DNA of 34,659 nt from Acidobacteriota bacterium (GTDB taxonomy: Bacteria; Acidobacteriota; Terriglobia; 20CM-2-55-15): positions 1 through 34,659 of the forward strand of contig JAHFTY010000016.1 of assembly GCA_023265365.1 (NCBI GenBank), in the 5' to 3' direction. A model generated the notes under the pieces. It had not been told where the DNA came from. It saw nothing but the letters and a program-made list of their open reading frames with translations, and ran no database searches. Position numbers and translations under genes: made by a program. Below, one piece after another: positions 2,028 to 34,104 of this stretch (its first letter is position 1; every line of letters begins with the position of its first letter).

Positions 2028-5000
2028 TTACAAGAGCGTTCCCCGAAGAACGATCAGCGCCACGGTGAAGTAAATAATCAGTCCGGTAACGTCCACCAGC
2101 GTTGCGACGAACGGCGCGGACGACGTGGCCGGATCGAAGCCCATCCTGCGCAGGACAAAGGGCAGGAGCGAACCGACCAGCGTGCCCCACAGCACGACGC
2201 CCACCAGCGAAAGAGACACCGTGAGCGCAACGAGAAGCCAGTGCGGACCGTAGATTGACGAGAAGGCGGACCATATCGAAATCCGCAGGAAGCCGACCAT
2301 TCCCAGAATGGCGCCGAGCGCCAGGCCTGCCAATACTTCGCGGCGCATCACGCGCCACCAGTCCGCCAGGCCCACTTCTCCCAGCGCCAAAGCGCGGATG
2401 ACGAGCGACGTGGCCTGGGACCCCGAGTTGCCGCCGCTGGAGATGATCAGCGGCACGAACAGGGCCAGTACGACCGCTTTTGAAATCTCCAGTTCGAAGA
2501 CGCCCATCGCGGTCGCAGTCAGCATTTCGCCCAGAAAGAGCGCCGTCAGCCATCCCGCGCGTTTGCGGACCATCCGGCTGAACGCGATCCGCATGTACGG
2601 CTCATCGAGCGCTTCGGATCCGCCGATCTGCTGGATGTCCTTGGTGGCCGCCGCCTCGGCGACGTCCAGGACGTCGTCGATCGTGACGATGCCGATGAGG
2701 TTGCCGCCGGTATCCGTTACCGGAAGGGCGCTGCGGTCGTACTGCCGGAACGCCGCGACAGCGGCGGTCTGATCGTCGGTGGCCTTGAGCGCGACGAAAC
2801 GGCGGTCCATCAGGCCGGAAACGTGGTTGTCGAGCGAGGTCAGCAGAAACTCCCGGATCCGGATGTCGTCGATCAACAACCCCTGCTCGTCGACGACGTA
2901 AATCACGTTCAGCGTTTCGCTGTCCTGGCCATGCGTGCGGACATAGTCCAGAACTTCCTTCACGGTCCAGTGCTCGCGGACGCTGACGTAATGCGGCGTC
3001 ATCAGGCGGCCCACCGATCCCTCGGGGTAGCCGAGAAGCCTCAATGCGACGGCGCGTTCCGCCGGCGTCAGCATGGACAGAAGCTGCCGTGTGACGGCCG
3101 CGGGCAGTTCTTCAAGAAACATGGTGCGGTCGTCCGGCGCCATGTTGTTCAACAGGGCCGCCACGTCTTCCTGGGCCATCGCTTTCAGCAGGGCTTCCTG
3201 GCTCTCCAGCGACAGGTACTCGAATACCGCCGCGGCGTTCTTGCGCGGAAGGAAACGGAAGACGATGACCTGGTCCTCGAGGCTGAGGTCCGTCAGGATC
3301 TCGGCCAGATCGTTCGCGTGACGATTGCGAACCAGGTCGCGAAGCCTCGAATAGTTGCCTTCGTGAACCGCCGCGGCCAGCTCGTCTGCCGGGTGCGCGG
3401 CGTTGCGAATGGCCCCCAGCGCTTCGTCGCGCTGCGGACCGGTAAGTTGTTTTTCCATTTGATTGAGCGCCGCACGAACAACGTCGTGATGATGGACGTG
3501 GAGTCCGACCGCCTTGACGGCATCGAGCCACACGCGATGAATCAATTCAAGATCGCCGGCCGAAAGCGATGGCGAGTGAGCGCCGAGGTGGTACGCGTCG
3601 GTGCGGCCACTCTGACGATGAATGACAAGGCGAAGGTGCTGGTTCGGCCCTTTCTCCGCTCGTTCCCACGCCTCGCCGACAAGCCGGGCTTGCTCATCGG
3701 CCGACAATGTCGACGACTCGCCGACATACACTTCAGACGAATGCAGCCGGACCGCCACACCGATCACGCCGTCGAAAACATTGTTCGCCGGAACAATCAG
3801 CAGGCGGACGGGCCGCCCGCCTCGCTCGGTCAGCGCGACAACCTGTGAAAACAAACGGCTCTCCTCGGGCGTCCACACGCTGGATTCACCGGAGGCGTGA
3901 TCCATATCGACTCCGAGCAGACGCACGGTCACCACGACCACATCGCGATCTCCGGCTGCCTGGAGGCCCGCAACCACATGCGACAGGGAGTGGGGATGGC
4001 GCACGGAAACCAGAACATTTCCAGGCCGCACGTCCACCTGGCCCAGCGAAACGTCGGTCGAAGGAAGCAGTTCGAAGGGGCTGTCTTCTTCCGGCCCCAC
4101 CGCCTCGATCCCCTTCGTCCGCGTCGCCAGCGCGACCGCCAGCCCGCCGATCAGGCTGAGGGCCGCAATCGCCGGTATGTCGCCGGATAAGAGAATGACC
4201 GCGGACACCGCGGCGATCAGCGTCCCGACCGCTCCCAAAAGAAAAACCGGAACCTTGAAGATCTGCGGACCGGCCCGCACGCCCCTCAGCCGGATGACCG
4301 ACGCAATTTTCAGGATGACGGTCGACGCCACGGCCAGACCATACGCTCGCGCCAGCCAGGTCACCTGTCCGCCGCTGACCACAATCACCATGACGGCAGC
4401 CGCAGCCGCCGCGTTCAAAGGATCCACGCCAAAGGATCGCCGCTGCGCCGAAAGCCGCCGCAAAAGCTGCTCGGCATCTTCAAGAGAAGCGTGCGCCGCC
4501 GGCACCAGCATCAGAACCGCGGACACACCGACGAGAAGAGTCATGAGACCCTTCAGCCAGAGTGGAATCCGCAGGTATTGGACCAGGCCTGCAAGAGGCG
4601 CCGGCACCCAGAAATGGGCGGCTTCTGCGGGTACCAGCCCGACGAAGAGCAGCGACAGCAGGACCGTCAGCACAAAAACGAAAAACGTCGCAAACACGCT
4701 GGTCCGGCGCAACGCTTCCAGGCGGGGCGGCGCAAATTCGTGCGCGACCCGGGCCAGCGTGTCCCCTCCTCCAATCGCGGGCAGAACCAGTGCGACGGCG
4801 AGAAGCCATTGCAACGCCGGGAAGTCCCCGCCCGGCAGAGGCGGCACCAGAAACAATCCGGAGGACAGTCCGCTTCGCGAGACGGCGGCGACTCCCATCA
4901 TGACCAGCGCGATCAGGACTCCCACGGCCGTCCATACCGCCTTTGCAATCGTCGACGACGGAAGATCCAGGCCAACCCGGGCCCGTGTCCACAGCAGACC

Positions 5001-5474
5001 GACGAGGCCCATCGCCCCAACCGTGACCAGTTCCGTCACGGTCAGCCGGGCCGTGACGCTCCATTCGGCAATCCATACCGCGCCGAAGCTGACCAGATAC
5101 TGGCCGCACAACACGCAAGCCAGCGCGATGAGCAACAGACGCTCGGTCAACACCGCAGCCGAGGCGATGTTCGCGGTACCCCGGCCAAACGCCTGATCCG
5201 TCCGGCCGATCAACCCGCCCGGAATGAACAGCGCCCAACCCTCGATATCGATCGCACGCACCAGCGCCCCGATCATGCACGCGCCGAGAATGAACCACGG
5301 CGCCGGCTCCCCAATCGCCGACCGCGCCACGCCCGACAGGAAGAACGCCGCAATTGCAAGTTCCGGCAAGGCGAGAGCAACCGCTCTCGACACCGAAATG
5401 AACGACAGCAACGTCGTTGTTGTCGAGACGATGCGAACCTGGCGCCTGGTATTCGCGGACACTCCGGCATTCAT
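2028..5474 (-). CDS. APC-like permease / USP-like / MgtE fusion transporter
   Basis: An 1148-residue protein, more than twice the length of MgtE. Residues 1-450 contain about ten to twelve hydrophobic segments and resemble amino-acid/polyamine permeases of the APC superfamily. Residues 480-660 form a soluble region resembling a universal-stress-protein domain. From about 690 it is a complete MgtE magnesium channel: helical N domain (about 700-815), two CBS domains (about 822-945), then five membrane segments (about 975-1145) with SSGGNSGSQAT at 1012-1022 and the pore aspartate Asp1128 in TLVDVTGL. MgtE carries Mg2+ inward and is gated by Mg2+ binding to its N and CBS domains. The MgtE part is closely related to the ordinary MgtE at 13183-14499. 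The permease substrate is not known. The reading frame is open throughout, so this is not two genes joined by a missed stop. The ATG at 5474 has no clear Shine-Dalgarno sequence. Confidence 0.85.
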   Translation of the reverse strand: MNAGVSANTRRQVRIVSTTTTLLSFISVSRAVALALPELAIAAFFLSGVARSAIGEPAPWFILGACMIGALVRAIDIEGWALFIPGGLIGRTDQAFGRGTANIASAAVLTERLLLIALACVLCGQYLVSFGAVWIAEWSVTARLTVTELVTVGAMGLVGLLWTRARVGLDLPSSTIAKAVWTAVGVLIALVMMGVAAVSRSGLSSGLFLVPPLPGGDFPALQWLLAVALVLPAIGGGDTLARVAHEFAPPRLEALRRTSVFATFFVFVLTVLLSLLFVGLVPAEAAHFWVPAPLAGLVQYLRIPLWLKGLMTLLVGVSAVLMLVPAAHASLEDAEQLLRRLSAQRRSFGVDPLNAAAAAAVMVIVVSGGQVTWLARAYGLAVASTVILKIASVIRLRGVRAGPQIFKVPVFLLGAVGTLIAAVSAVILLSGDIPAIAALSLIGGLAVALATRTKGIEAVGPEEDSPFELLPSTDVSLGQVDVRPGNVLVSVRHPHSLSHVVAGLQAAGDRDVVVVTVRLLGVDMDHASGESSVWTPEESRLFSQVVALTERGGRPVRLLIVPANNVFDGVIGVAVRLHSSEVYVGESSTLSADEQARLVGEAWERAEKGPNQHLRLVIHRQSGRTDAYHLGAHSPSLSAGDLELIHRVWLDAVKAVGLHVHHHDVVRAALNQMEKQLTGPQRDEALGAIRNAAHPADELAAAVHEGNYSRLRDLVRNRHANDLAEILTDLSLEDQVIVFRFLPRKNAAAVFEYLSLESQEALLKAMAQEDVAALLNNMAPDDRTMFLEELPAAVTRQLLSMLTPAERAVALRLLGYPEGSVGRLMTPHYVSVREHWTVKEVLDYVRTHGQDSETLNVIYVVDEQGLLIDDIRIREFLLTSLDNHVSGLMDRRFVALKATDDQTAAVAAFRQYDRSALPVTDTGGNLIGIVTIDDVLDVAEAAATKDIQQIGGSEALDEPYMRIAFSRMVRKRAGWLTALFLGEMLTATAMGVFELEISKAVVLALFVPLIISSGGNSGSQATSLVIRALALGEVGLADWWRVMRREVLAGLALGAILGMVGFLRISIWSAFSSIYGPHWLLVALTVSLSLVGVVLWGTLVGSLLPFVLRRMGFDPATSSAPFVATLVDVTGLIIYFTVALIVLRGTLL

Positions 5475-5540
5475 GAAAGTGCCGTCAGTATAGCTTCAAA
5501 TTTTAGTCATCATCGAACTACCGGCGCGGATTCAACCGCT

Positions 5541-5639
5541 GTAGAATGGCCCTGCTTTGAAAACAACGAGCCTTCTGATTACCCTGCCCAGGCCTGCTGC
5601 AACGGCATGAACACCATGATCGATGCGATGACGCACTAA
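5541..5639 (+). pseudogene. decayed 3' end of a second DUF4159 gene
   Basis: Just upstream of the intact DUF4159 gene, bases 5604-5639 encode GMNTMIDAMTH followed by a stop; the intact gene ends GMNIMIYAMTH followed by a stop. The last 36 bases including the stop agree at 30 positions, and both stops are followed at once by a similar GGAG ribosome-binding stretch. Weaker similarity (WPCF against LPCY) may reach back to about 5541. Further upstream is the start of the opposing transporter gene, so only the tail survives. The best explanation is a former tandem duplicate. Confidence 0.6.
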
Positions 5640-5654
5640 GGAGCAATTCGGATC

Positions 5655-6503
5655 GTGAAAACCGCCGGCCTTCTGCTTCTTGTTATCGCACTCGGCACGG
5701 GAGCCTTCATCGGCCTCCGGTCCGTCTTCGCGGATGTCAACCCGGACTCGCCGGAGTTCTACTTCACACGGCTCGCCTACTCCGAAAGCCCCAACGGATG
5801 CTGCCGCCATCGCGGCGGATTCCGGCAGCGGACGATGCCGGTTCCTCCGCCTTTTGACTGTCCCGAGTTTGGCGGCAGGAACTTCTTTCCGCCACAGGGC
5901 TGGGGCTGGGGCACAGACTATCCCGGCGGCGACTGCAAGTTCATGGGAGGCATCCATCGGTTGACCGGGATGCGCGTGAGTCCGAATCCGAACGTCATCG
6001 GGGTCAAGGACCCCCGGCTCTTCAAGTTCCCTTTTGTCTACATCGTCGAACCGGGTGGAATGTACTTCGATGATCAGGACGCCGGTATCATGCGCGAATA
6101 CCTGCTGCGCGGCGGATTCCTATTCGCCGACGATTTCTGGGGACTGCGCGAAGGGGGAAACTTCGCCGCTCAGATGCGGAAGGTTTTTCCGGAACGCGCT
6201 CTCGAAGTGATTCCGCTGACCGACGAAGTCTTTCACACCTTCTTCGACGTCGAGTCGCTGATTCAGGTACCGAATCAGGGCCAGGGTTGTTACGGGGGAC
6301 CGACATTCGAGGTGTACGACGACACGGAACCGCGCGTTTACGGCATCCGTGACGACAACGGCCGTCTGATGGTGATTGCCACTTACAATTCAGATTTTGG
6401 TGATGCGTGGGAGTACATGGACCTTCCCTGCTATCCCGAAAAGTATTCCGGCCGGGCGTACCGCGTCGGCATGAACATCATGATCTACGCAATGACGCAT
6501 TAG
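5655..6503 (+). CDS. DUF4159 domain protein, membrane-anchored or exported
   Basis: 282 residues. An N-terminal hydrophobic stretch (about 3-26) acts as a signal or anchor. The rest fits the DUF4159 domain, a glutamine-amidotransferase-like fold of unknown activity: FYFTRLAYSE near 35, DPRLFKFPFVYIVEPGGM near 120-137, and LLRGGFLFADDFWG near 151-164. Near the N-terminus there is an unusual Cys/Arg/Pro-rich insert (NGCCRHRGGFRQR). The start is GTG at 5655, supported by AAGGAG eleven bases upstream. The cyanophycinase-like gene begins ten bases after its stop, so the two are probably one transcript. DUF4159 proteins are common in acidobacterial genomes, but I know of no demonstrated function. 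Confidence 0.8.
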   Translation: MKTAGLLLLVIALGTGAFIGLRSVFADVNPDSPEFYFTRLAYSESPNGCCRHRGGFRQRTMPVPPPFDCPEFGGRNFFPPQGWGWGTDYPGGDCKFMGGIHRLTGMRVSPNPNVIGVKDPRLFKFPFVYIVEPGGMYFDDQDAGIMREYLLRGGFLFADDFWGLREGGNFAAQMRKVFPERALEVIPLTDEVFHTFFDVESLIQVPNQGQGCYGGPTFEVYDDTEPRVYGIRDDNGRLMVIATYNSDFGDAWEYMDLPCYPEKYSGRAYRVGMNIMIYAMTH

Positions 6504-13182: not shown

Positions 13183-14499
13183 TCAAAGAAGGGTGCCGCT
13201 GAGGATTAAACTTGCCACGGTGAAGTAGATGATCAACCCGGTCACGTCCACGAGAGTGGCCACGAATGGGGCGGATGCGGAGGCCGGGTCCATGCCCATT
13301 CGACGAAGAATAAACGGCAGGGTCGAACCGACAATCGTGCCGAACAGAACCACGCCGATCAGGCTCGCGGCAACCGTTATGGCGATCAGGCGATAGTGTT
13401 CTCCATAAGGCTGGGCAATGGCCTGCCAGACCAGAATCCGGATCAAACCGATCGCCCCCAGGATGCAGCCCAGGGCGAGCCCGGCGGCGAACTCGCGGCG
13501 CACCACGCGCCACCAGTCCCGCAGGCGGACTTCGCCCAGAGCCATGGCGCGAATGACCAGGGTCGTTGCCTGCGATCCGGAATTTCCGCCGCTGCTGATG
13601 ATGAGCGGGATGAACAAGGCCAGAACGACGGCTCTCGCGATTTCGTGTTCGAAGAATCCCATCGCGGTTGCGGTCAGCATTTCACCGAGAAAGAGCGCGG
13701 AGAGCCAGCCGCCGCGTTTGCGGACCATGTCGAGGAAACCGACCTCGAGGTAGGGCGCATCCAGGGCTTCCATACCGCCGATCTTCTGAATATCCTCGCT
13801 GGCTTCCTCCTCGACGACGTCCACAATGTCGTCCACCGTGACGATCCCTTTCATCCGGTTGTTGTCGTCGACGACGGGGATCGCCAGCAGATGCTCTTCG
13901 GAAAACAGGTTCGCCAGCGCTTCCTGATCCATCTCCTCTTTTACCGAGACGAACGTGGTGCGCATGATGTCGCGAACGCTCTGGCCTCGTTGCGCTGAAA
14001 ACAAACGGCGGAAGGTGACGATGCCCAATAGATGCTGCTCCGAGTCGAGCGCGTAGGCGTAGTGGACGGTCTCGACCAGTCCGGACTGGGCCTGGCGTCG
14101 AAGATAAGCGATCGCTTCGTCGATGGGCATTTCCGGGCGCAGCCTTGCAAAACGAGGGCTCATCAAACCGCCGGCTTCATCCTCTTTATAGGCCATCAGC
14201 GCGAGCACTTCGCGAAGGTTGGTTTCGTCCAGCAGCGAAAGCAGGCCGGGCCGGTCTTCTTCCGGCGCTTCCTGAATGACGTCCGTCGCGTCGTCCGGCG
14301 CAAGAAGCCGCATCCAGATTCTCCGTTCCCCTTCGGGCAGCGACAGGATGAGCGACGCCTGATCCCGCGGGTTCAGCGCCAGAAAGAAGTCGTCCGCCTG
14401 CGCGCGGGGAATCTGCTCGAACGCGTCGACACGTTCCTCTTCGGATAGCGTGTCCCATGTTTCGAGTAAGTTGCCGGTTTGAGAAGTGGGAGTGCTCAC
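13183..14499 (-). CDS. mgtE: MgtE magnesium channel
   Basis: 438 residues, the standard MgtE length. The helical N domain covers about 10-110, the CBS pair about 112-235 and the five-helix pore about 265-435. GGNSGSQAT (304-312) and the pore aspartate Asp418 in TLVDVTGL are present. It imports Mg2+ and closes when Mg2+ fills the cytoplasmic domains. The pore half is very similar to that of the fusion protein at 2028-5474, so the two are paralogues on the same strand. The start is GTG at 14499, with AGGAGG only three bases upstream, an unusually short spacing; no better in-frame start is visible. It follows the prolyl oligopeptidase gene by 31 bases. Confidence 0.93.
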   Translation of the reverse strand: MSTPTSQTGNLLETWDTLSEEERVDAFEQIPRAQADDFFLALNPRDQASLILSLPEGERRIWMRLLAPDDATDVIQEAPEEDRPGLLSLLDETNLREVLALMAYKEDEAGGLMSPRFARLRPEMPIDEAIAYLRRQAQSGLVETVHYAYALDSEQHLLGIVTFRRLFSAQRGQSVRDIMRTTFVSVKEEMDQEALANLFSEEHLLAIPVVDDNNRMKGIVTVDDIVDVVEEEASEDIQKIGGMEALDAPYLEVGFLDMVRKRGGWLSALFLGEMLTATAMGFFEHEIARAVVLALFIPLIISSGGNSGSQATTLVIRAMALGEVRLRDWWRVVRREFAAGLALGCILGAIGLIRILVWQAIAQPYGEHYRLIAITVAASLIGVVLFGTIVGSTLPFILRRMGMDPASASAPFVATLVDVTGLIIYFTVASLILSGTLL

Positions 14500-16602: not shown

Positions 16603-18705
16603 ATGCGATCCCGCACGTCTCTGCGAAAAAAACTAGCTTACACCTTTCTCGCCGGAGCGCTCCTCACGGTTTTGCTCTTCAGTCTGGTGATCAAAGGCAT
16701 CGTCAGCGATTATTTTCAACGTCAGCAGACGGTCAGCCGTCAGTTCGTCGAAGACCAGAGCCGTCAAGCGGTCCGGGCGAATCTAACGATCCTCAAGGAC
16801 AGAATCCAGCAGACCTTTTCGTCCGGAACCATCGCTTTGGATTCGGTTGCAAAGTCCGGATGGCTCGGCGACCAGATGCCCCGTTTATCTGCCCGGCAGC
16901 GGCAAAGCACCGCGCGGGCGTTGCAGACCGTACAGGTTGAGGGGAAGTTGTCGTTTGTGACGATCGTCGGCCTCGACGGCCGGGTCGCCATACGTTCGAC
17001 GAATCCGTCCGCTTATGGCGACGATACGCTGATGGGTGATTATTCGAACCCCAACGGACCGGTTTCCTCGATACGCCATCTGATCCAGACGGCTCTCGGC
17101 GGAAAAACGGTGAGCGGTTTCGAAGCGCTCGCACCCGAGACGCTCGAACGGGAAAACGCGATCGAGAACGGGAAGGTTGTCGCCTCGCTGAAAGACTATG
17201 TCGCCGTCCCCCTCCGGGAACCGACGAATGCTCCGGCGCGCGGCCGCAAGATCGCGCCGGGGACAGTGGAATCGCGCGCGCTGGCGTTGACTTTTGCGAC
17301 GCCTGTGCTTGACTCGGGCGGAAACATCACAGGGGTGGCGATCGCAGGCAGGGTGGTGAACAAAGACCTCGCCATCGTTCAGGACGTTCAGAATATTTTG
17401 AAGGACCAGGTCACCATCTTTTTCGGGGAGGAGCGGATCGCGACGACCCGAAAGGAAACCCAGGGCGGGCACAAAGGCGAAAGCCAGATGGGAACCATCC
17501 ACCCCAACTATCCGGCCAACGTGCTCAGCGGCCAGTACGAAGAGCGCACGCCCCGGGTCGTCGACGGCGAGGAGCTTGTCGGGATCTTCGACCCGTTCAA
17601 GGATCTCGACGGCGTCGTCCTGGGATCCCTTTACATTGGGCGGCCGACCTCTCTCGTCGATGCGATTTCGAAGGCGCAGGAAGATATCGAAGGGGGCATC
17701 GAACGCAAGACAACCTTGTACATTGCCGTTCTCGCGTTTCTATCCATCCTGATCGGCGTGGTGATCGCATCGATCTTCTCGAAGCGCATCACCAACCAGA
17801 TTGATCAGTTGCGCAAAGGGGCCGAGACGATCTCGGACGGGAACCTCGACTATCGCCTCAAAATCGATTCCGGAGACGAAATCGAAGTGCTGGCCGAACA
17901 GTTCAACGCGATGGCCGCGAAACTCCATGACTCGTACCAGACGCTTGAAAAGAAAGTGGAGGAGCGGACCCGCGAACTCAAGGAGTCGCAGGAGGCGATG
18001 GTGCAGCAGGAAAAAATGGTCGGCGTCGGGCAACTCGCGGCCGGCATCGCGCACGAACTGAACACGCCTCTGGGCACCATCATCGGATACGCGCAGATGC
18101 TTCGCGAAGATCTGTCCTTGCAGCCGTCGGTCAACGGAAGCCTGGCCGACGTCGACGAGGTCATCGAGCAGGCGGGCCGGTGCCGCGACCTGGTGAAAAA
18201 CCTTCTGAACTTCTCGCGCCGCTCCACGACCGAAAAGTCACAGGCCGACATCAACGGCATCGTGCGCAAGATCCTGTCCCTGGTCGAGCACGACTTCGGA
18301 TTGAAGCGCGTGCACATTTACACCACGCTCGCACCGCATCTGCCCAAGGCGAAGGTGAACGAAAACGAAATCGCGCAGGTGGTTCTGAATCTCGCAAACA
18401 ACGCGGTGGACAGCATGCCCGAGGGCGGAGACCTTCACGTGCGAACCGTGTACGAGCCCGACACCGACCGCGTGTGCATCGAGGTCCTGGATACCGGATT
18501 CGGCATCAGCGAATCGGATCGCAACCGCGTTTTCGAACCGTTTTTCACAACGAAAGAGATCGGCAAGGGAACCGGCCTCGGACTTTCGATCTGCTATAAG
18601 ATCGTCGAAAACCACATGGGCTCCATGGAGTTCGATTCCATCATCGGCCAGGGAACCACGTTCCGTGTCTACCTTCCCGTGAATGCCGAGGTCCGCGTTG
18701 TCTGA
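16603..18705 (+). CDS. membrane sensor histidine kinase (Cache-HAMP-HisKA-HATPase)
   Basis: 700 residues. A first membrane helix (about 11-33) and a second (about 371-392) bracket a periplasmic sensor region of about 335 residues that looks like a Cache-type domain. A HAMP domain (about 392-445) and a coiled coil (445-472) lead to the dimerisation domain with the phospho-acceptor His484 in GIAHELNTPLG. The ATP-binding domain has the N box near 596-600, DTGFGIS at 630-636 and GKGTGLGLS near 654-662. It should phosphorylate the NtrC-type regulator whose gene overlaps its 3' end. The signal is unknown; Cache domains usually bind small organic molecules. Confidence 0.93.
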   Translation: MRSRTSLRKKLAYTFLAGALLTVLLFSLVIKGIVSDYFQRQQTVSRQFVEDQSRQAVRANLTILKDRIQQTFSSGTIALDSVAKSGWLGDQMPRLSARQRQSTARALQTVQVEGKLSFVTIVGLDGRVAIRSTNPSAYGDDTLMGDYSNPNGPVSSIRHLIQTALGGKTVSGFEALAPETLERENAIENGKVVASLKDYVAVPLREPTNAPARGRKIAPGTVESRALALTFATPVLDSGGNITGVAIAGRVVNKDLAIVQDVQNILKDQVTIFFGEERIATTRKETQGGHKGESQMGTIHPNYPANVLSGQYEERTPRVVDGEELVGIFDPFKDLDGVVLGSLYIGRPTSLVDAISKAQEDIEGGIERKTTLYIAVLAFLSILIGVVIASIFSKRITNQIDQLRKGAETISDGNLDYRLKIDSGDEIEVLAEQFNAMAAKLHDSYQTLEKKVEERTRELKESQEAMVQQEKMVGVGQLAAGIAHELNTPLGTIIGYAQMLREDLSLQPSVNGSLADVDEVIEQAGRCRDLVKNLLNFSRRSTTEKSQADINGIVRKILSLVEHDFGLKRVHIYTTLAPHLPKAKVNENEIAQVVLNLANNAVDSMPEGGDLHVRTVYEPDTDRVCIEVLDTGFGISESDRNRVFEPFFTTKEIGKGTGLGLSICYKIVENHMGSMEFDSIIGQGTTFRVYLPVNAEVRVV

Positions 18706-20065
18706 CATTCCCAGCATCCTGGTTGTCGAAGATGACGCGAAGCACGGCACCATGTGCGCCCGCCTCCTTGAACGCAAGGGTTACCGCGCCCGGTCCATCA
18801 CTTCCGGACGGGACGCGCTGTCGCTGCTCGAAAACAATGGGATGGTGGATGTCGTGCTCGCCGACCTCCAGATGCCCGAGATGGACGGCATGCAGCTTCT
18901 GAGCGCCGTGAAAACGCGATTCCCTCACGTTGAGTTCATCGTGATGACCGGCTACGGAAGTGTGAAAAGCGCCGTCGAAGCCATGCAGCTCGGGGCCGCG
19001 CACTACATTCAGAAGCCACTGGACCATGACGAGCTGAACATCCTGATCCAACGCGTGATCGAAAAGAAGAATCTCGAAGCGAAAGTCGACAGGCTGCGCG
19101 CGGAACTGCAGGGGAAGTACAGCTTCGAAAACGTCGTCGGACGCAGCGCGGTCATGCAAACGGTGCTGGACAAGATGTCGGCCGCCTGCGGAAATCGCGC
19201 AACGGTTCTGATCACGGGAGAAAGCGGAACCGGAAAAGAGATGGTTGCCCGGGGCATTCACTACAACACCTTCAAAAACGGCGCCCCTTTCGTTCCCGTG
19301 AACTGCGGCGCCTTGCCAAAGGACCTCATCGAAAGCGAGTTGTTCGGCTACAAGAAGGGCGCCTTTACCGGGGCGGTCGGCGATTCCGAAGGTTTGTTCC
19401 GGGCCGCGGAAGGCGGCACGATCTTCCTCGACGAAGTGATGGAGATGTCTCCTGAACTGCAGGTCAAGTTGATGCGCGTGTTGCAGGAACGCAAGATCCG
19501 CCACCTGGGAGACACGCGGGAAATCCCGATCAACGCACGAGTGATTGCCGCGACCAACAAGCAGATTGCGGAAGCACTGGAATCGGGGGCGATCCGGAAG
19601 GATCTCTACTACCGGCTCAGCGTCATCAACATTCACATCCCGCCGCTGCGGGAGCGCGGTGAAGATGTTCCGCTGCTGATCGAGCATTTCCTGAAGAAGC
19701 ATCAGGAGGATTACAAGAGCGTTGTTGCCGGTATCGAACCGGAAGCGATGGAAGTCCTCATGAAGTATCCGTGGCCCGGAAACGTCCGGGAATTGGAGAA
19801 TCTCGTCGAGATGCTCCTGGCCTACGCCCGGCATCCCATGATCCAGGTGCCGGATCTGCCCGAACGGATTGCCGACGCCGCCCCACCTCACAAGAAAGCC
19901 ACCATCGGGGACGATGAGGTCTTCACACTGAAGGAAGCGGAGCGCAAGCTCATCATCAATGCGTTGAGCAGAAGCAAGGGCAACAAGAGCCATGCGGCCC
20001 AGATGCTGGGTATTTCCCGCAAGAGCCTCTACAAGAAACTGGTGGACTACAACATTTCAGAATGA
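18683..20065 (+). CDS. sigma-54-dependent response regulator (NtrC family)
   Basis: 460 residues. The receiver domain (about 10-125) has the acidic pair in VVEDD, the phospho-acceptor Asp61 in LADLQMPEMDG and Lys111. The AAA+ domain (about 150-370) has Walker A GESGTGKE at 179-186, the sigma-54 contact loop GAFTGA at 226-231, and FLDEV for Walker B. The C-terminal Fis-type helix-turn-helix spans about 420-458. It would bind enhancer sites and open promoters bound by sigma-54 RNA polymerase. The ATG at 18683 overlaps the kinase gene by 23 bases; an in-frame TTG at 18698 with GAGG upstream, giving an eight-base overlap, is also plausible. Its stop overlaps the start of glgP in ATGA. Confidence 0.93.
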   Translation: MPRSALSDIPSILVVEDDAKHGTMCARLLERKGYRARSITSGRDALSLLENNGMVDVVLADLQMPEMDGMQLLSAVKTRFPHVEFIVMTGYGSVKSAVEAMQLGAAHYIQKPLDHDELNILIQRVIEKKNLEAKVDRLRAELQGKYSFENVVGRSAVMQTVLDKMSAACGNRATVLITGESGTGKEMVARGIHYNTFKNGAPFVPVNCGALPKDLIESELFGYKKGAFTGAVGDSEGLFRAAEGGTIFLDEVMEMSPELQVKLMRVLQERKIRHLGDTREIPINARVIAATNKQIAEALESGAIRKDLYYRLSVINIHIPPLRERGEDVPLLIEHFLKKHQEDYKSVVAGIEPEAMEVLMKYPWPGNVRELENLVEMLLAYARHPMIQVPDLPERIADAAPPHKKATIGDDEVFTLKEAERKLIINALSRSKGNKSHAAQMLGISRKSLYKKLVDYNISE

Positions 20066-22500
20066 TCGGCAAACAACCGGCCCCTTCCAAAGCTTCGGAA
20101 ATTGCATTTCAGGTCGAAAAAGAGCTGCGTTATTCGCTCGGACAAAAAAAAGACGAGGCGTCTCCCTACGAACTGTTCCGTGCGCTCGGCCTCGTGATCC
20201 GGCGGATGCTCGTCGATGGATTTTTCGAGACGCAGCAGCGGTATGCCGCAACCGATCCGAAATCCGTCTACTACCTTTCGATGGAATTCCTGATCGGGCA
20301 GTCGCTGCGGAACAATCTGCACAACCTGAAGATCTACGAAACGTGCAAGGAAGCGATGGCCGGTTTCGGCTGGGACTTCGATTTCATCGCGGAAGCGGAG
20401 CCTGACGCCGCCCTCGGCAATGGCGGGCTCGGCAGGCTGGCCGCATGTTTCCTGGACTCGCTTGCAACGCTCGACATGCCCGGTTTTGGGTATGGCATCA
20501 ACTACGATTACGGCCTCTTCAAACAGGAATTCAGCGGCGGATATCAGAAAGAGCGGCCCGACCTCTGGCTGGGCAACGAGTCGCCGTGGATGATCGAGCG
20601 GCCGGACCAACTCGTGGTCGTGCCGGTGTACGGCAAGGTGGTGGACAAGACCGAGTCCGGCCGCTACACACCCACCTGGGTGGACTGGCAATGTCTGTTC
20701 GGTATCCCGAGCGACATTCTGATCTGCGGCCTCGGCGGCCGGACGACGAACTGGCTGCGGCTGTTCTCCGCGCGGTCGTCGCAAGACTTCAACATACAGT
20801 CGTTCAATGAAGGCGATTACTTCAAGGCGATCGAAGACAAGATCGAGTCTGAAAAGATCTCGAAAATCCTGTACCCATCGGACACGTATATCTCCGGCAA
20901 GGAACTTCGCCTGACGCAGGAGTACTTCCTCGTCGCCTGCGCTGCTCGCGATATCTTCCGGCGCTATCTCGAACGGCATTCGCAGATGGAGCATTTTGCG
21001 GACAAGGTCGCCATCCAGATGAACGACACGCATCCGGCGCTGACCGTCGCCGAGGTCATGCGCATGCTGGTCGACGAATACGACTACGGCTGGGAGGCGG
21101 CCTGGGAAACCACACAGGCCGTTTGCGCCTTCACCAATCACACGCTGATGCAGGAGGCGCTGGAAAAATGGCCGGTCAACCTCATTCAGCGTGTCCTGCC
21201 AAGACACCTCCAGATTATTTACGAAATCAACCGCAGGTTCCTCCAGCAGGTCGGCAGCCGCTGGCCCGGCGACATGAACCGGATGCGCCGGATGTCGCTG
21301 ATCGAGGAAGGCGGGCTCCAGCAGGTCCGCATGGCTCACCTGGCGATTGTCGGCAGTCACTCGATCAACGGCGTCGCCAAACTGCATACGGAGTTGTTGA
21401 AGAAAAACCTCATACCGGATTTCCACGAACTCTGGCCCGAACGATTCAACAACAAGACCAACGGCGTGACCCATCGCCGCTGGCTGCTGCACGCGAATCC
21501 CGAGCTCGCGGCGCTCATCACGGACACGGTCGGGGAGCGGTGGGTCACCGACCTCGATGAAATCCGCGGAATCGAAAGCCATGCGGATTCGGCCGGGTTC
21601 CGGACACGCTTCGCGGCGGCGAAGAAGGCGAACAAGCAAAGACTCGCCGCCTTCATCTGCCGGGCGACCGGCGTTTCGGTCGACGCCGATTCTCTCTTCG
21701 ACGTTCAGGTGAAGCGGATGCACGAGTACAAACGCCAGCTCCTGAACGTGATGCACATCGTCCACGTGTATCTGCAAATCGTGATGGACGCGAAGTACCC
21801 TGCCTCTCCCCGGACCTTCGTATTTGCCGGCAAAGCGGCCCCCGGTTACGCCACGGCAAAGCTGGTGATCAAACTGATCAACAATGTTGCGGAAGTCGTG
21901 AACAACGATCCGCAAACGGAGAACCTGCTGAAGATCGTTTTGCTCCCCGATTACCGCGTGTCCCTTGCGGAAAGAATCATTCCGGCAGCGGACCTGAGCG
22001 AGCAAATCTCAACGGCCGGCATGGAAGCGTCGGGCACCGGCAACATGAAGCTCTCCATGAACGGCGCGCTCACCATCGGAACGCTGGACGGCGCGAATAT
22101 CGAGATCCTGGATGAGGTGGGAAACGACAACATGTACATCTTCGGTCTCACCGCGCCGGAAATCCAAAAGCTCCGCGCAGGCTGGTCGTACAATCCGCGC
22201 CAGTACTACGATGCCAACCCGGCCATCAGGCGTGTCGTCGATGCCATCGCGGGCGACCGGTTCTGCCGCGCCGAACCAGGCATCTTCCGGCCCATCCACG
22301 ACCGGCTCTTCCGCGATGGAGACCCATACTTTCACCTCGCCGATTTCGCCTCGTACGTCGCAGCGCAGGAACGTGCCGACCGCGACTTTTGTGATCCCGA
22401 TGCCTGGGTACGCCGTGCGATCGTCAATGTCGCCCGCATGGGAAAGTTCTCGAGTGACCGCACGATTCGGGAATACGCACGGGAAATCTGGGGACTCTGA
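20062..22500 (+). CDS. glgP: glycogen/starch phosphorylase
   Basis: 812 residues, full length for GT35. The N-terminal allosteric and catalytic region has SVYYLSMEFLIG near 73-84 and ALGNGGLGRLAACFLDS near 115-131. Further on are NDTHPAL near 321 and VKRMHEYKRQ near 551. The pyridoxal phosphate lysine is Lys663 in EASGTGNMKLS, followed by NGALTIGTLDGANIEI. It releases glucose-1-phosphate from glycogen or another alpha-1,4-glucan in the cytoplasm. It starts inside the stop codon of the regulator gene (ATGA), so translation is coupled. No other glycogen gene is in view. The dispersed repeat lies just downstream and may end the transcript. Confidence 0.96.
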   Translation: MIGKQPAPSKASEIAFQVEKELRYSLGQKKDEASPYELFRALGLVIRRMLVDGFFETQQRYAATDPKSVYYLSMEFLIGQSLRNNLHNLKIYETCKEAMAGFGWDFDFIAEAEPDAALGNGGLGRLAACFLDSLATLDMPGFGYGINYDYGLFKQEFSGGYQKERPDLWLGNESPWMIERPDQLVVVPVYGKVVDKTESGRYTPTWVDWQCLFGIPSDILICGLGGRTTNWLRLFSARSSQDFNIQSFNEGDYFKAIEDKIESEKISKILYPSDTYISGKELRLTQEYFLVACAARDIFRRYLERHSQMEHFADKVAIQMNDTHPALTVAEVMRMLVDEYDYGWEAAWETTQAVCAFTNHTLMQEALEKWPVNLIQRVLPRHLQIIYEINRRFLQQVGSRWPGDMNRMRRMSLIEEGGLQQVRMAHLAIVGSHSINGVAKLHTELLKKNLIPDFHELWPERFNNKTNGVTHRRWLLHANPELAALITDTVGERWVTDLDEIRGIESHADSAGFRTRFAAAKKANKQRLAAFICRATGVSVDADSLFDVQVKRMHEYKRQLLNVMHIVHVYLQIVMDAKYPASPRTFVFAGKAAPGYATAKLVIKLINNVAEVVNNDPQTENLLKIVLLPDYRVSLAERIIPAADLSEQISTAGMEASGTGNMKLSMNGALTIGTLDGANIEILDEVGNDNMYIFGLTAPEIQKLRAGWSYNPRQYYDANPAIRRVVDAIAGDRFCRAEPGIFRPIHDRLFRDGDPYFHLADFASYVAAQERADRDFCDPDAWVRRAIVNVARMGKFSSDRTIREYAREIWGL

Positions 22501-23550: not shown

Positions 23551-24594
23551 ATGCGCGTCCTCCTGCTCTTTTTTCTGCTGGTGTCTCCGGCGTTCGCGCA
23601 GGACATGGATATTGCGGTTCGGCCGGACGCCATCTACGTGGAGAGCATGGCCGGCAACATCGTTCCCATGGAACGCGTCTTCTTCCACATCGTCGCGCAC
23701 AACACATCACAGAATCCGGTCCAGATCGAATGGCTCCGTTTCGATGTGACCAATTCAACGGGCATCCTCTTTTCCGGACAGTACTCCGGACAGGCGCTGA
23801 TGGCGTTGTTCGACAGCGCGATCGATCGAAAGCGCATCGAACCGACCGCGAAAAGTTCTCTCGACCTGAAGCCCGATGAACGGAAGGCGGTCTCGGACGT
23901 GTTTCTGGATTTTCCGAAGGGGTTTATTGGCGAATCGATGCTTGTCGAAGTCAGTTACAAATCCGGCGGCAAGCCGATGTCCCGTAAAATCTCGACGCCG
24001 CTGAAACACATCGCTGGTCTTTCGGGACGTCTTCCGTTCGATGGCGTCTGGTATGTGGCCGCTGAGCACGGGTACCTGGACCCCCACAAACGTTTTCTCG
24101 CCGAGGCGTATGCTTACGACTTCATCCAGATCGGAGCGAACGGGAAAAGCTTCCAGCGCGACGGCTCCCGCAACACGGACTATTACGGGTTCGGAAAGAA
24201 AGTGTTGGCCGCGAAGGCGGGAACCGTTGTGGCGGTTCGCACGGATATCACGGACAACGATCCCGGCGACCCGAACATCAATACGCCCGGCGGAAACGTC
24301 GTCGTCGTCGATCACGGAAACAACCAGTTCGGATACTATGCCCACCTGAAGGCGAAAAGCGTTTCCGTCAAGGTGGGCGCAAAGCTGAAGGCGGGAGATC
24401 CGGTCGGCGAAGTCGGCAACTCCGGCGACTCCGCCGAACCTCATCTGCATTTTCACGTCATGACCGCCGCGGATCCGTCGCAGGCGGACGGCATTCCTGT
24501 CGTGTTCGAAAACTGGAAAGCACAAGCCTATGGCCGTCTGCCGGTCGAGCGGCAGCAGGGCATCATTCCAAAAGGAGAGTTTGTTCAACCATGA
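23551..24594 (+). CDS. exported M23-family metallopeptidase
   Basis: 347 residues with a signal peptide (about 1-16, ending AFA-QD). Residues about 20-150 form a beta-rich N-terminal domain of unknown type. The LytM/M23 domain covers about 165-320: AYAYDF gives the zinc ligand Asp190, GYYAHL contains His265, and GNSGDSAEPHLHFHV contains His298 and His300. The usual H-x3-D pair is absent (residue 186 is Ala); His179, eleven residues before Asp190, probably takes its place, as in related forms with the ligand farther upstream. M23 enzymes cut peptidoglycan cross-links or other peptides in the periplasm. AAGG stands shortly before the ATG. It overlaps the following RidA gene by four bases (ATGA). 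Confidence 0.85.
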   Translation: MRVLLLFFLLVSPAFAQDMDIAVRPDAIYVESMAGNIVPMERVFFHIVAHNTSQNPVQIEWLRFDVTNSTGILFSGQYSGQALMALFDSAIDRKRIEPTAKSSLDLKPDERKAVSDVFLDFPKGFIGESMLVEVSYKSGGKPMSRKISTPLKHIAGLSGRLPFDGVWYVAAEHGYLDPHKRFLAEAYAYDFIQIGANGKSFQRDGSRNTDYYGFGKKVLAAKAGTVVAVRTDITDNDPGDPNINTPGGNVVVVDHGNNQFGYYAHLKAKSVSVKVGAKLKAGDPVGEVGNSGDSAEPHLHFHVMTAADPSQADGIPVVFENWKAQAYGRLPVERQQGIIPKGEFVQP

Positions 24595-25781
24595 CACGCA
24601 AAAACCTCGTGTACGTTGCGATCGCCGCGCTCGCGGCCGGCAGCATGATGGCCTTTCCACAGACGCGAACGATCATTGCCCCTCCGGGATCGGCGGTCGC
24701 CGGCATTCCGTTCAGCCCCGGAGTGAAAGCCGGGGATCTTCTTCACGTGGCCGGAACCATGGGAACGGACGCTTCAGGAATGGTTGTCAAAGGGGGCATT
24801 GAGGCCCAGACAAAAAAGACACTCGAAAACATCGGCGCAATCCTCAAGGCCGGAGGCATGGAGTACAAAGACGTCGTTTCGGTCAACGTGTACCTGGCCG
24901 ACGCGCGTGACTTCGACGCCATGAACAAGGTCTACCGCGAGGTCTTCCCCACCAATCCTCCGGTGCGCGCCACCACTCAGGCGGACCTGATGCTTCGCGA
25001 CGGTCTGGTCGAAATCTCGGCCATTGCCGCGGCGCCGAATCTGGCGCGCCGTTATCTGAATCCGGCGGGATGGTCCGGCAATCCACTGCCGTACAGCAAA
25101 GGCATCGCAGCCGGCGATTACATCTTTCTCGCCGGACTCGTCTCGCAGAATCCCCAGACCGGCGCCGCCGTGCCTGGCGACGTGAAAATCCAGACCAGGC
25201 AGATTCTGGATAACGCGAAGGTCCTGACGGAAACGGCGGGATTCCAGATGTCGGACATGGTGTGGAGTCGCGTGTGGCTGACGGATCCTCGCGACTTCGC
25301 CGGAATGAATGAGATCTATCGCGGATACTTCGGGGACATTCCACCGACCCGCGCCACGACACGAGCGGGGCTGACGACGACCACCTACAACGTCGAGATC
25401 ATGCTCTGGGGAGTGAAGGGCGTGAAGCAGCGCCTTGGCAATCCGGCAGGCAACACGCCGCTCAGCCAGGCGATCAAGGTGGGAAACCACGTGTTCGTTG
25501 CCGGACTGACCGGCGGGGGCGCGCAGGTCCGGGGCGATATCAAGGGGCAGGCGGCGATGATCCTGACGAACATCCAAACGCTGCTGAAGGCCGGCGGCGC
25601 CGATTTTCCGAATGTCGTCGAAGCGCAGGTCTGGATCACCGACTCCCGGAACTTTGCAGCCATGAACGAAGCCTATACGGCGGCGATCAAAGGCGAAGTT
25701 CCCGCGCGAGCCACAGTCGGAGCGCAATTGATGTCTCCGGACAACCTGGTGGAAATGGCGATGATCGCCGTCACCCCGTAG
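24591..25781 (+). CDS. exported protein with three tandem RidA domains
   Basis: 396 residues made of a signal peptide (about 1-22) and three RidA (YjgF/YER057c/UK114) domains at about 27-148, 155-275 and 282-396. Each has the strand-helix pattern of the family and keeps the arginine that binds the substrate carboxylate: Arg126 in PPVRATTQA, Arg254 in PPTRATTRA and Arg373 in VPARATVGA. RidA normally is a cytoplasmic homotrimer of about 130-residue subunits that hydrolyses reactive enamines and imines made by pyridoxal phosphate enzymes. Three domains in one chain would give a whole trimer from one polypeptide, here sent across the membrane. It is translationally coupled to the M23 peptidase gene. 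The activity of the exported form is unknown. Confidence 0.9.
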   Translation: MTRKNLVYVAIAALAAGSMMAFPQTRTIIAPPGSAVAGIPFSPGVKAGDLLHVAGTMGTDASGMVVKGGIEAQTKKTLENIGAILKAGGMEYKDVVSVNVYLADARDFDAMNKVYREVFPTNPPVRATTQADLMLRDGLVEISAIAAAPNLARRYLNPAGWSGNPLPYSKGIAAGDYIFLAGLVSQNPQTGAAVPGDVKIQTRQILDNAKVLTETAGFQMSDMVWSRVWLTDPRDFAGMNEIYRGYFGDIPPTRATTRAGLTTTTYNVEIMLWGVKGVKQRLGNPAGNTPLSQAIKVGNHVFVAGLTGGGAQVRGDIKGQAAMILTNIQTLLKAGGADFPNVVEAQVWITDSRNFAAMNEAYTAAIKGEVPARATVGAQLMSPDNLVEMAMIAVTP

Positions 25782-31773: not shown

Positions 31774-34104
31774 ATGGCAAGAGGCTTCCTTCCCGAATCC
31801 ATTCGCAAGCGCGTATCGCCGATCATCGCGGCGGTCTTGACGGTCGCTTTCCTCGTCCTCGGCATTTACCGCCTCAACCTGACCGACGTGAACTTCCTGA
31901 CGCGCGTTGAATTCCTCTGGATGGACGCCAAGTTCAGAATCCGCAGTTTTCAGCAACCCGGGAACGAAGTCGTTCTCGTCGGAATGGATGACCGGACGCT
32001 GGACAAAATCGGTTCGGGCCGTATTTTTCAGCGGTCCTACATGGCCTCGGTCATCGATAAGCTGGCCGAAGCCAAGCCCAAGGTCATCGGATTCGACATG
32101 ATCTATCCGGATGTGGATCCCACCAATCCGGAGAACGACAAGAAGTTTGCCGAGTCGATTCAGAAGGCGGGCAACGTTGTTCTCGGTGTCTATCTCCAGC
32201 TTTTGACTCAGACCGGCGAGCGCCGGGAGGCCACGCCCCTGACCGAAGACCTCATGAGCCTGGTGATCGAGAAGCAGGTCTTTCCGGCCGAGCGCCGGCA
32301 GGGCGGCGCCTCCAACAAGCTCGAAGAACTGATACAGGGAAAGGACCTGCAGCTTGCTATCCCGCCGCTGATGAAAGCGGCCGCATCGTTCGGGTTCGTG
32401 AACTTTCACCGCGACACGGAAGGCGGGCTCCGCTATCAGCCGCAGTTCATCGAGTATGAGGGCCGACTGTGGCCGTCGCTCGATATCCAGCTCACCAGGC
32501 ACTACCTGGCCGCGCCGTCGCCGACCGTCGATATTGAAAACGATCACATCGCCTCGGTACAGATCGGAAACTACGAACTTCAAACCGATCAGCACGGCCG
32601 CTACATGCTGAACTTCGACGGGCCGCGCGGATGGCATCAGACGATATCGATGCTGGACGTCCTTGAAGGGAAAGTCGCGCCGGAGATTTTCAAAGACAAA
32701 ATCGTCATCATCGGATCGCCGGCAATCGGACTCGGCGATATCGTGGTGTCCCCGTTCGATCCCACCCTGCCCGCGATGGAACTGCACGCGAACGTCATCG
32801 ACAATTTCCTCCACCAGCGTTTTCTCTACCGCACGATGATCACGAAGCTCATCGACGTGATGTTCATCGTCCTTTTCGGCGTCGTCGCCGGCGTTTACCT
32901 GCCACGGATGGACGCCAAGCGCAGCATTGCCTACAGCCTGTTTCTCCTGGCTTTATTCACGGTCATCAACATTCTCACGTTCCTGACGATCCACTGGGTT
33001 CTGAGCTTCGTGTACCCGGGACTGGCCCTCGTTGCCACCAGCGGCGGCGTCATCAGTTGGAAATACCTGACGGAGGAAAAGGACAAGAAACGGACCAAGG
33101 ACGCGTTCAAAACCTACCTGGACGAGCACGTCGTCGATCAGGTCGTCGCCAATCCCGATCTGCTCAGACTCGGCGGCGAAAAACGCGAAATGTCGGTTCT
33201 TTTCTCCGACATCCGGGGTTTCACGAGTTTTTCCGAAAAAATGGCCCCGACCGAGGTCGTTCACTTTCTGAACCAGTACTTCGACAAGATGCAGGGCCTC
33301 ATCTTCCTGTACAAAGGCACGCTCGACAAGCTGATCGGCGACGCGGTGATGTGCTTCTGGGGCGCCCCGCTGGAAACCAGGGATCATGCCCTCCGCGCAG
33401 TTTTATGCGCGCTCGAGATGGTTCATGCTGTCGAAGATCTGCGTCCCGTGCTTATACTCCCGGGCGGCGCCAAATTTGAGATCGGAATCGGCGTGAATGC
33501 GGGGCCAATGGTTGTGGGCAACATGGGATCGGAAACGCGAATGAGTTACACGGTCATGGGCGATAACGTGAACCTGGGTTCGCGCCTCGAATCGTTGAAC
33601 AAATACTACGGCACGAGGATTCTCATCTCCGACACCGCTTACGAAGATTGCAAGCACATCGTCTTCTGCCGCCAGCTCGACACGATTCAGGTGAAAGGCA
33701 AATCGCAGGCCGTGACGATCTACGAGCCCCTGGGGATTCGCCGCCTCCGGGATGACCGCCGCCGCACCGATCGCCGCGGCGAACTCACGACAGCGAAGAA
33801 GGTCAAGCGCACGATCATGATGGCCCGATTCGGAGAACGGCGGAACGAAGAGCGGCGGATGGGATCGGACCGGCTGGTTCTGAAACCGGAGCAGGAAGAA
33901 CTCGCCACAATGTACGAGCACGCACTGTCGCTCTATCGCCAGGGGGAATTCGACGCAGCCGAAATGGCCTTCGACCACGTCCTGACGCTCAGCCCCAACG
34001 ATGGCCCATCGCGTCTGATGAAAGGGCGAATCGCCAAATATCGACTCGAGTATGCAGGAGCCACTTCAAAATTCGACGGGGTATACAAGTTCGATGAGAA
34101 ATAG
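31774..34104 (+). CDS. CHASE2-domain class III adenylate cyclase with TPR-like tail
   Basis: 776 residues. One membrane helix (about 15-33), an extracytoplasmic CHASE2 sensor domain (about 40-345), three further helices (about 356-376, 384-406 and 408-428) and a class III cyclase domain (about 465-650). Metal ligands Asp479 (FSDIRGFT) and Asp523 (LIGDAVM), the purine-selecting Lys519 and Asp597, and the catalytic Asn600 and Arg604 (DNVNLGSR) are all present; the Lys/Asp pair indicates ATP and thus cAMP. An arginine-rich linker (about 655-700: RRLRDDRRRTDRRGE, then GERRNEERR) leads to a TPR-like helical end (about 705-770). The start at 31774 has no good ribosome-binding site. A FecR-type gene follows after four bases. 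Confidence 0.92.
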   Translation: MARGFLPESIRKRVSPIIAAVLTVAFLVLGIYRLNLTDVNFLTRVEFLWMDAKFRIRSFQQPGNEVVLVGMDDRTLDKIGSGRIFQRSYMASVIDKLAEAKPKVIGFDMIYPDVDPTNPENDKKFAESIQKAGNVVLGVYLQLLTQTGERREATPLTEDLMSLVIEKQVFPAERRQGGASNKLEELIQGKDLQLAIPPLMKAAASFGFVNFHRDTEGGLRYQPQFIEYEGRLWPSLDIQLTRHYLAAPSPTVDIENDHIASVQIGNYELQTDQHGRYMLNFDGPRGWHQTISMLDVLEGKVAPEIFKDKIVIIGSPAIGLGDIVVSPFDPTLPAMELHANVIDNFLHQRFLYRTMITKLIDVMFIVLFGVVAGVYLPRMDAKRSIAYSLFLLALFTVINILTFLTIHWVLSFVYPGLALVATSGGVISWKYLTEEKDKKRTKDAFKTYLDEHVVDQVVANPDLLRLGGEKREMSVLFSDIRGFTSFSEKMAPTEVVHFLNQYFDKMQGLIFLYKGTLDKLIGDAVMCFWGAPLETRDHALRAVLCALEMVHAVEDLRPVLILPGGAKFEIGIGVNAGPMVVGNMGSETRMSYTVMGDNVNLGSRLESLNKYYGTRILISDTAYEDCKHIVFCRQLDTIQVKGKSQAVTIYEPLGIRRLRDDRRRTDRRGELTTAKKVKRTIMMARFGERRNEERRMGSDRLVLKPEQEELATMYEHALSLYRQGEFDAAEMAFDHVLTLSPNDGPSRLMKGRIAKYRLEYAGATSKFDGVYKFDEK

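Follow-up and report, generated by a model that had tools for sequence, protein, structure and literature searches.

A MgtE-type channel fused to a remodelled KimA-like transporter module in Acidobacteriota

Related systems and organization of the fused gene

Gating of MgtE channels is attributed to intracellular Mg2+ and ATP, and movement of the MgtE N domain, which sets the plug helix, opens or closes the channel. In the MgtE of Thermus (PDB 2yvx/2zy9), closure was blocked by mutation at any one of the sites Mg2 to Mg7 (PMC5882242). The K+/H+ symporter KimA (KUP/APC superfamily, PDB 6s3k) was found to be inhibited by c-di-AMP (PMC10284832). Its ion site, comprising the residues for K+ coordination, gating and proton coupling, includes D36, Y43, D117, T121, S125, T230, E233 and Y377; K+ uptake was abolished when Y43 was changed to Ala, and growth was unaffected by the D117E replacement (PMC6994465). 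CbrA and other transporter-kinase transceptors carry a transporter domain and another module in one chain, and CbrA combines signalling with transport, still transporting histidine (PMC13022988, PMC7096432). Ssy1 of yeast is a permease homologue that senses without transport and signals via Ptr3 and the Ssy5 protease (PMC6423903). These transceptors and non-transporting sensors are the closest known concepts to the protein described here. However, the output of this protein is an ion channel rather than the histidine kinase of the CbrA type, and neither Ssy1 nor KimA is joined to a channel. No published MgtE joined to a transporter was found in the open-access literature searched. The novelty lies in this combination and in the apparent retirement of the permease, since the component families were already known.

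The window, a stretch of 34,659 nucleotides from an Acidobacteriota bacterium (assembly GCA_023265365.1, contig JAHFTY010000016.1), contains a single ATG-initiated open frame of 1148 codons plus stop, encoded on the minus strand between 5474 and 2028; the plus strand across 2028-5474 is interrupted by stops. The unbroken 1148-residue frame had been recognized in the initial annotation, from which the strand was missing. All features given below lie on the minus strand unless stated otherwise. The chain starts with a remodelled APC/KimA-type membrane domain of ~12 hydrophobic segments (residues 1-455, 4110-5474), delimited by hydropathy and alignment to the unfused family, and continues with a cytosolic domain (residues 474-669, 3468-4055), alpha/beta by predicted secondary structure. 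The C-terminal helices of the permease part lead straight into MgtE (residues 646-697, 3384-3539; 64-84% identity among the fusions), with the junction at about residues 690-697. The two parts are joined end to end, the MgtE start following the last permease helix within ~10 residues, and the unfused MgtE of genome G507 begins at the point equivalent to this junction.

The MgtE half is complete, as had been claimed initially. The model TIGR00400 matched residues 703-1143 (E 3.6e-110, 368.8 bits against a cutoff of 232.75), and the alignment to Thermus MgtE (PDB 2yvx) covered residues 697-1144. The N domain (residues 719-819, 3018-3320; PF03448, E 1.4e-24) is followed by the CBS pair (residues 826-938, 2661-2999; PF00571 in two stretches), the plug helix region (residues 939-970, 2565-2660) and the membrane pore (residues 971-1148, 2031-2564; PF01769, E 1.9e-36, match at 1007-1138). 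The pore aspartate D1128 (2091-2093) corresponds to Asp432 of Thermus MgtE and is Asp in all fusions covering the position. Although this order of parts is that of Thermus MgtE, the channel of the fusion sits behind a 690-residue transporter-derived module, part of its lock acids are missing and its ATP contacts are replaced. The closing acids D91, D226, D247 and D250 (Thermus numbering) were kept in all fusions, the D95 position was an acid in none, and E59 was lost in 12 of 13. The window protein has lost E59, D95, E216, E255 and E258, with A942 and K945 at the positions of E255 and E258, and the ATP-contact positions Y170, N203 and F227 (PMC5529423) are substituted. E216, E255 and E258 vary among the fusions. 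Their loss was considered as an effect of the fusion and this was dropped, as they were retained in some fusions (G797, G798) and some of them were lost in the near unfused MgtEs of G507 and G464. Some of the lock-residue changes occur in several unfused neighbours as well, so the changes are a trait of the MgtE subclade rather than of the fusion as such; being regulatory, and partly missing in several unfused MgtEs, the lock residues do not decide membership in the MgtE family.

A search of the window's genome for CorA gave no match, therefore MgtE-type channels are likely important in this genome. A separate ordinary MgtE, 50% identical and of another MgtE clade, is encoded 8 kb from the fusion (13186-14499); together with the CorA result, it points to a reliance of this genome on Mg2+ uptake of the MgtE type.

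Distribution and single origin of the fusion

The survey covered draft (MAG-type) assemblies and was searched at depth within Acidobacteriota only. The same architecture was found in 14 assemblies from two classes of the phylum, and in ten of these the frame is unbroken and 1148-1368 codons long. Three relatives from the family of the window's genome carry it, namely G007 (1108 codons, ended by the contig edge), AA63 (= G009; a copy containing N gaps) and G006. The G006 copy (L007, G006:C449), a 15th one, carries a frame break; the contig is 3.4 kb long and the reading frame shifts inside the CBS region, which indicates either a real pseudogene or an assembly error. In the second class, 11 of 193 genomes, belonging to families f59, f88 and f97, contained the fusion. 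A 1218-codon frame in G587 was rejected as a fusion, as it proved to be an unfused permease preceded by a stretch of open reading frame. No plasmid carrying the fused N-terminal half was found in a plasmid search.

The recurrence of the architecture in 14 assemblies argues against a chance or assembly join. The draft nature of the assemblies, the frame break in G006 and the N gaps in AA63 speak for an artefact joining two adjacent genes. Against it, in ten assemblies a single frame runs uninterrupted between the first and the last helix, several of these frames lie well inside contigs, and the codon substitution pattern is protein-coding along the entire fusion, so that the probability of an artefact is practically negligible. 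Neither homologues that are always split nor a break between 3400 and 4000 was encountered.

All fusions formed one clade in the MgtE tree (support 89/97) and in the tree of the cytosolic domain (support 100/100). In a smaller first set, the branching G479, (G631, (window, G007)) was identical in both halves. The nearest unfused MgtEs were those of G507 (70%) and G464 (67%), and no permease-type relative was found in either of these two genomes. It was concluded that the fusion is real, conserved and of single origin.

Unfused relatives and the change of the permease half

No Pfam or NCBIfam model matched residues 1-690 of the fusion, and no Pfam permease match was obtained for the eight fusions scanned (the window protein and seven others). 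The fusions nevertheless align over the whole permease domain to unfused relatives of ~760 aa, which consist of an APC-fold domain and an alpha/beta cytosolic domain and are widespread in Acidobacteriota (match in 40 of 61 relatives). This layout of a membrane domain followed by a cytosolic domain resembles that of KimA. AA_permease_2 (PF13520) was matched by 27 of 31 aligned members with a best E of 2e-55; the aligned set comprised 27 unfused and 4 fused proteins, thus the number of matches equals that of the unfused members. The initial label of an APC-like permease is hence supported indirectly, through the unfused relatives, whereas the fusion itself matches no Pfam permease model.

A search with the unfused-only profile gave no KimA match, and a profile-profile comparison was used in its place. 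The alignment between the unfused-family profile and KimA-type proteins spanned 480 columns (97.9% probability, E 5.5e-13), and a mixed profile of fused and unfused proteins matched KimA at E 7e-10. The equivalents of the eight KimA ion-site residues, D38, Y45, D111, T115, S119, S235, E238 and Y378, were invariant in 27 of 27 unfused proteins, with Ser (S235) at the position of KimA T230. Because the unfused family has all eight of these residues, K+ is a better guess for the substrate than the organic solute or amine assumed initially. We propose with moderate confidence, from these sequence comparisons, that the unfused Acidobacteriota family imports K+. Annotation by general permease models would have assigned it to amino acid transport; a widespread acidobacterial family matching such models may therefore consist of KimA-type K+ importers. 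The genome of the window contains two unfused genes for KimA-like permeases in head-to-head arrangement (L036, G000:C177, 2-1642 on the minus and 3499-5760 on the plus strand), and paired or tandem copies also occur in G617:C29, G019:C676, G053:C118 and G003:C359.

In the fusions, the constraint on the two N-terminal domains is reversed relative to the unfused proteins. The permease domain was less identical than the cytosolic domain in 78 of 78 fusion pairs (means 37% and 60%, with MgtE at 78%), while the opposite order was found in 347 of 351 unfused pairs (63% for the membrane and 45% for the cytosolic domain). The species pair G000/G479 shows both patterns, with permease/cytosolic identities of 36%/59% for the fused and 61%/43% for the unfused proteins, therefore the reversal does not result from species divergence. 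Among the 53 invariant polar positions of the unfused permease, 3 were conserved throughout the fusions and a fusion retained 30% on average, whereas the unfused proteins with the closest cytosolic domains (G807, G809, G811) kept 99%. Of the 11 invariant polar positions of the cytosolic domain, 10 were kept in all fusions. Within the fusions, the loss of constraint is thus confined to the permease domain.

The KimA-like site was changed as well. Its hydroxyls are swapped in the fusions (Y45F/L/V, T115L/F, S119A/V, S235G), and basic residues are newly present at 112, 242 and 328 in most of them, beside the site acids. In the window protein, F45 (5340-5342) replaces the Tyr of the unfused relatives (KimA Y43), R112 (5139-5141) lies beside the TM3 acid in place of Tyr/Phe (KimA Y118), and L115 (5130-5132) replaces Thr (KimA T121). 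The site acids remained Asp or Glu at 38 and 111 in all fusions with data and at 238 in 10 of 12, and Tyr378 was kept in 12 of 13; the proton-coupling acid is absent from the fusions of G007 and G631. The set is thus incomplete, with the acids mostly kept but the equivalents of Y43, T121, S125 and T230 lost. Since most of the acids and Tyr378 survive, the permease remnant may still bind a cation or transport in an altered form. For the closest fusion pair, a dN/dS of ~0.10 was obtained for the permease and of 0.05 for the MgtE N domain, these ratios being rough as dS was high. With dN/dS at about 0.1, the permease domain is not decaying and is still maintained.

Proposed control of the channel and genomic surroundings

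Based on these comparisons, it was proposed that the fusion is a predicted Mg2+ channel with an in-cis N-terminal control module derived from a retired K+-type transporter, a reading to which we give an even chance. The ancestor of the module would have been a complete KimA-like cation importer of the APC fold that also carried an alpha/beta domain in the cytosol. Following a single fusion, the membrane part of this importer would have been freed from the transport constraint and remodelled into a probably non-transporting anchor or sensor, in the manner of Ssy1. The cytosolic domain has retained the invariant residues, and its last helix leads directly into the MgtE N domain, so that occupancy of the cytosolic domain by a ligand or ion could shift the N domain and the plug helix and thereby set Mg2+ entry. 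The signal probably enters via the cytosolic domain, and coupling in which the N-terminal module acts on the channel is more likely than the reverse. Candidate signals are a nucleotide, for example ATP or c-di-AMP, and the K+ state as sensed by the membrane domain. The pattern of kept and lost residues suggests that an old transporter now serves channel control. The fusion is a clean evolutionary case of a transporter turned channel regulator, with unfused controls in the same genomes, and through it a connection of Mg2+ uptake with K+-type transport modules becomes open to testing.

The conserved residues of the cytosolic domain include R483, D511, H633, H661 and H662. The Usp model of Pfam (PF00582) touched 6 of the 31 aligned members (best E 0.023) and did not match the window protein, and no match to the cytosolic domain of KimA (PPAT-like, c-di-AMP-binding) was obtained by hhalign; sequence comparison thus supports neither the USP-like label of the initial annotation nor a KimA-type cytosolic domain. 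AlphaFold gave unusable models, with a pLDDT of 39 for the whole chain (5 sequences) and 50 for the cytosolic domain (2 sequences); a fold search with the poor model returned hits at E above 0.02 and TM ~0.2 only and was discarded. A diadenylate cyclase was encoded in 6 of 6 fusion genomes tested. The candidacy of c-di-AMP follows from this presence and the inhibition of KimA and has no other ground; it is a guess, as the cytosolic domain failed to align with that of KimA. The fuller version of the proposed control, a channel transceptor in which the retired K+-type transporter responds to K+ or to a nucleotide (for example c-di-AMP) and controls Mg2+ entry in the same chain, is put forward tentatively and is rather unlikely to hold in full. 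If true, one protein would balance the two main cations of the cell.

The initial annotation had proposed two working transporters under a shared Mg2+ gate, and such a protein could couple cation or solute transport to the channel, for example in K+/Mg2+ balance. The mostly preserved site acids, Tyr378, the purifying selection on the permease and the KimA D117E variant without a growth effect speak for continued transport. However, most invariant permease polar residues are lost when those of the soluble domain are kept, with 3 of 53 common to all fusions; the site hydroxyls are gone, basic residues stand beside the site, and two fusions are without the proton-coupling acid. Additionally, unfused paralogues of the permease half, available for the old job, coexist with the fusion in the genomes of the window, G007 and G479, and the suggested gating of both parts by the Mg2+-sensing domains disagrees with a MgtE subclade without part of the known Mg2+ lock. 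Two working transporters are therefore considered decidedly doubtful.

In another explanation, the permease part merely anchors, dimerises or stabilises a channel with ordinary Mg2+ gating. The variability of the permease segment (33-58% identity between genera in pairwise comparison of the fusions, against ~78% for MgtE) and its many unconstrained positions would fit an inert tether, yet this leaves the 10 kept invariant polar residues of the cytosolic domain and the retention of a ~12-helix domain across two classes unexplained. We hold it to be unlikely, and the control module is preferred.

No conserved operon context was found around the fusions examined, and no riboswitch scored above the gathering threshold in 116 kb. 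In G479 (L103, G479:C44, 7473-11272, minus strand), the genes for glutamine synthetase III (glnN), P-II and the ammonium transporter (amtB) are located immediately upstream of the fusion and share its strand, an arrangement not found around the other fusions examined. Elsewhere in the window, on the plus strand, a Cache-domain sensor kinase, a sigma-54 response regulator and a glycogen phosphorylase overlap by a few bases and likely form an operon (16603-22497). A 396-residue protein (24591-25778, plus strand) has three Ribonuc_L-PSP (RidA) matches in one chain, and a CHASE2 domain is fused to an adenylate/guanylate cyclase domain at 31774-34101 (plus strand).
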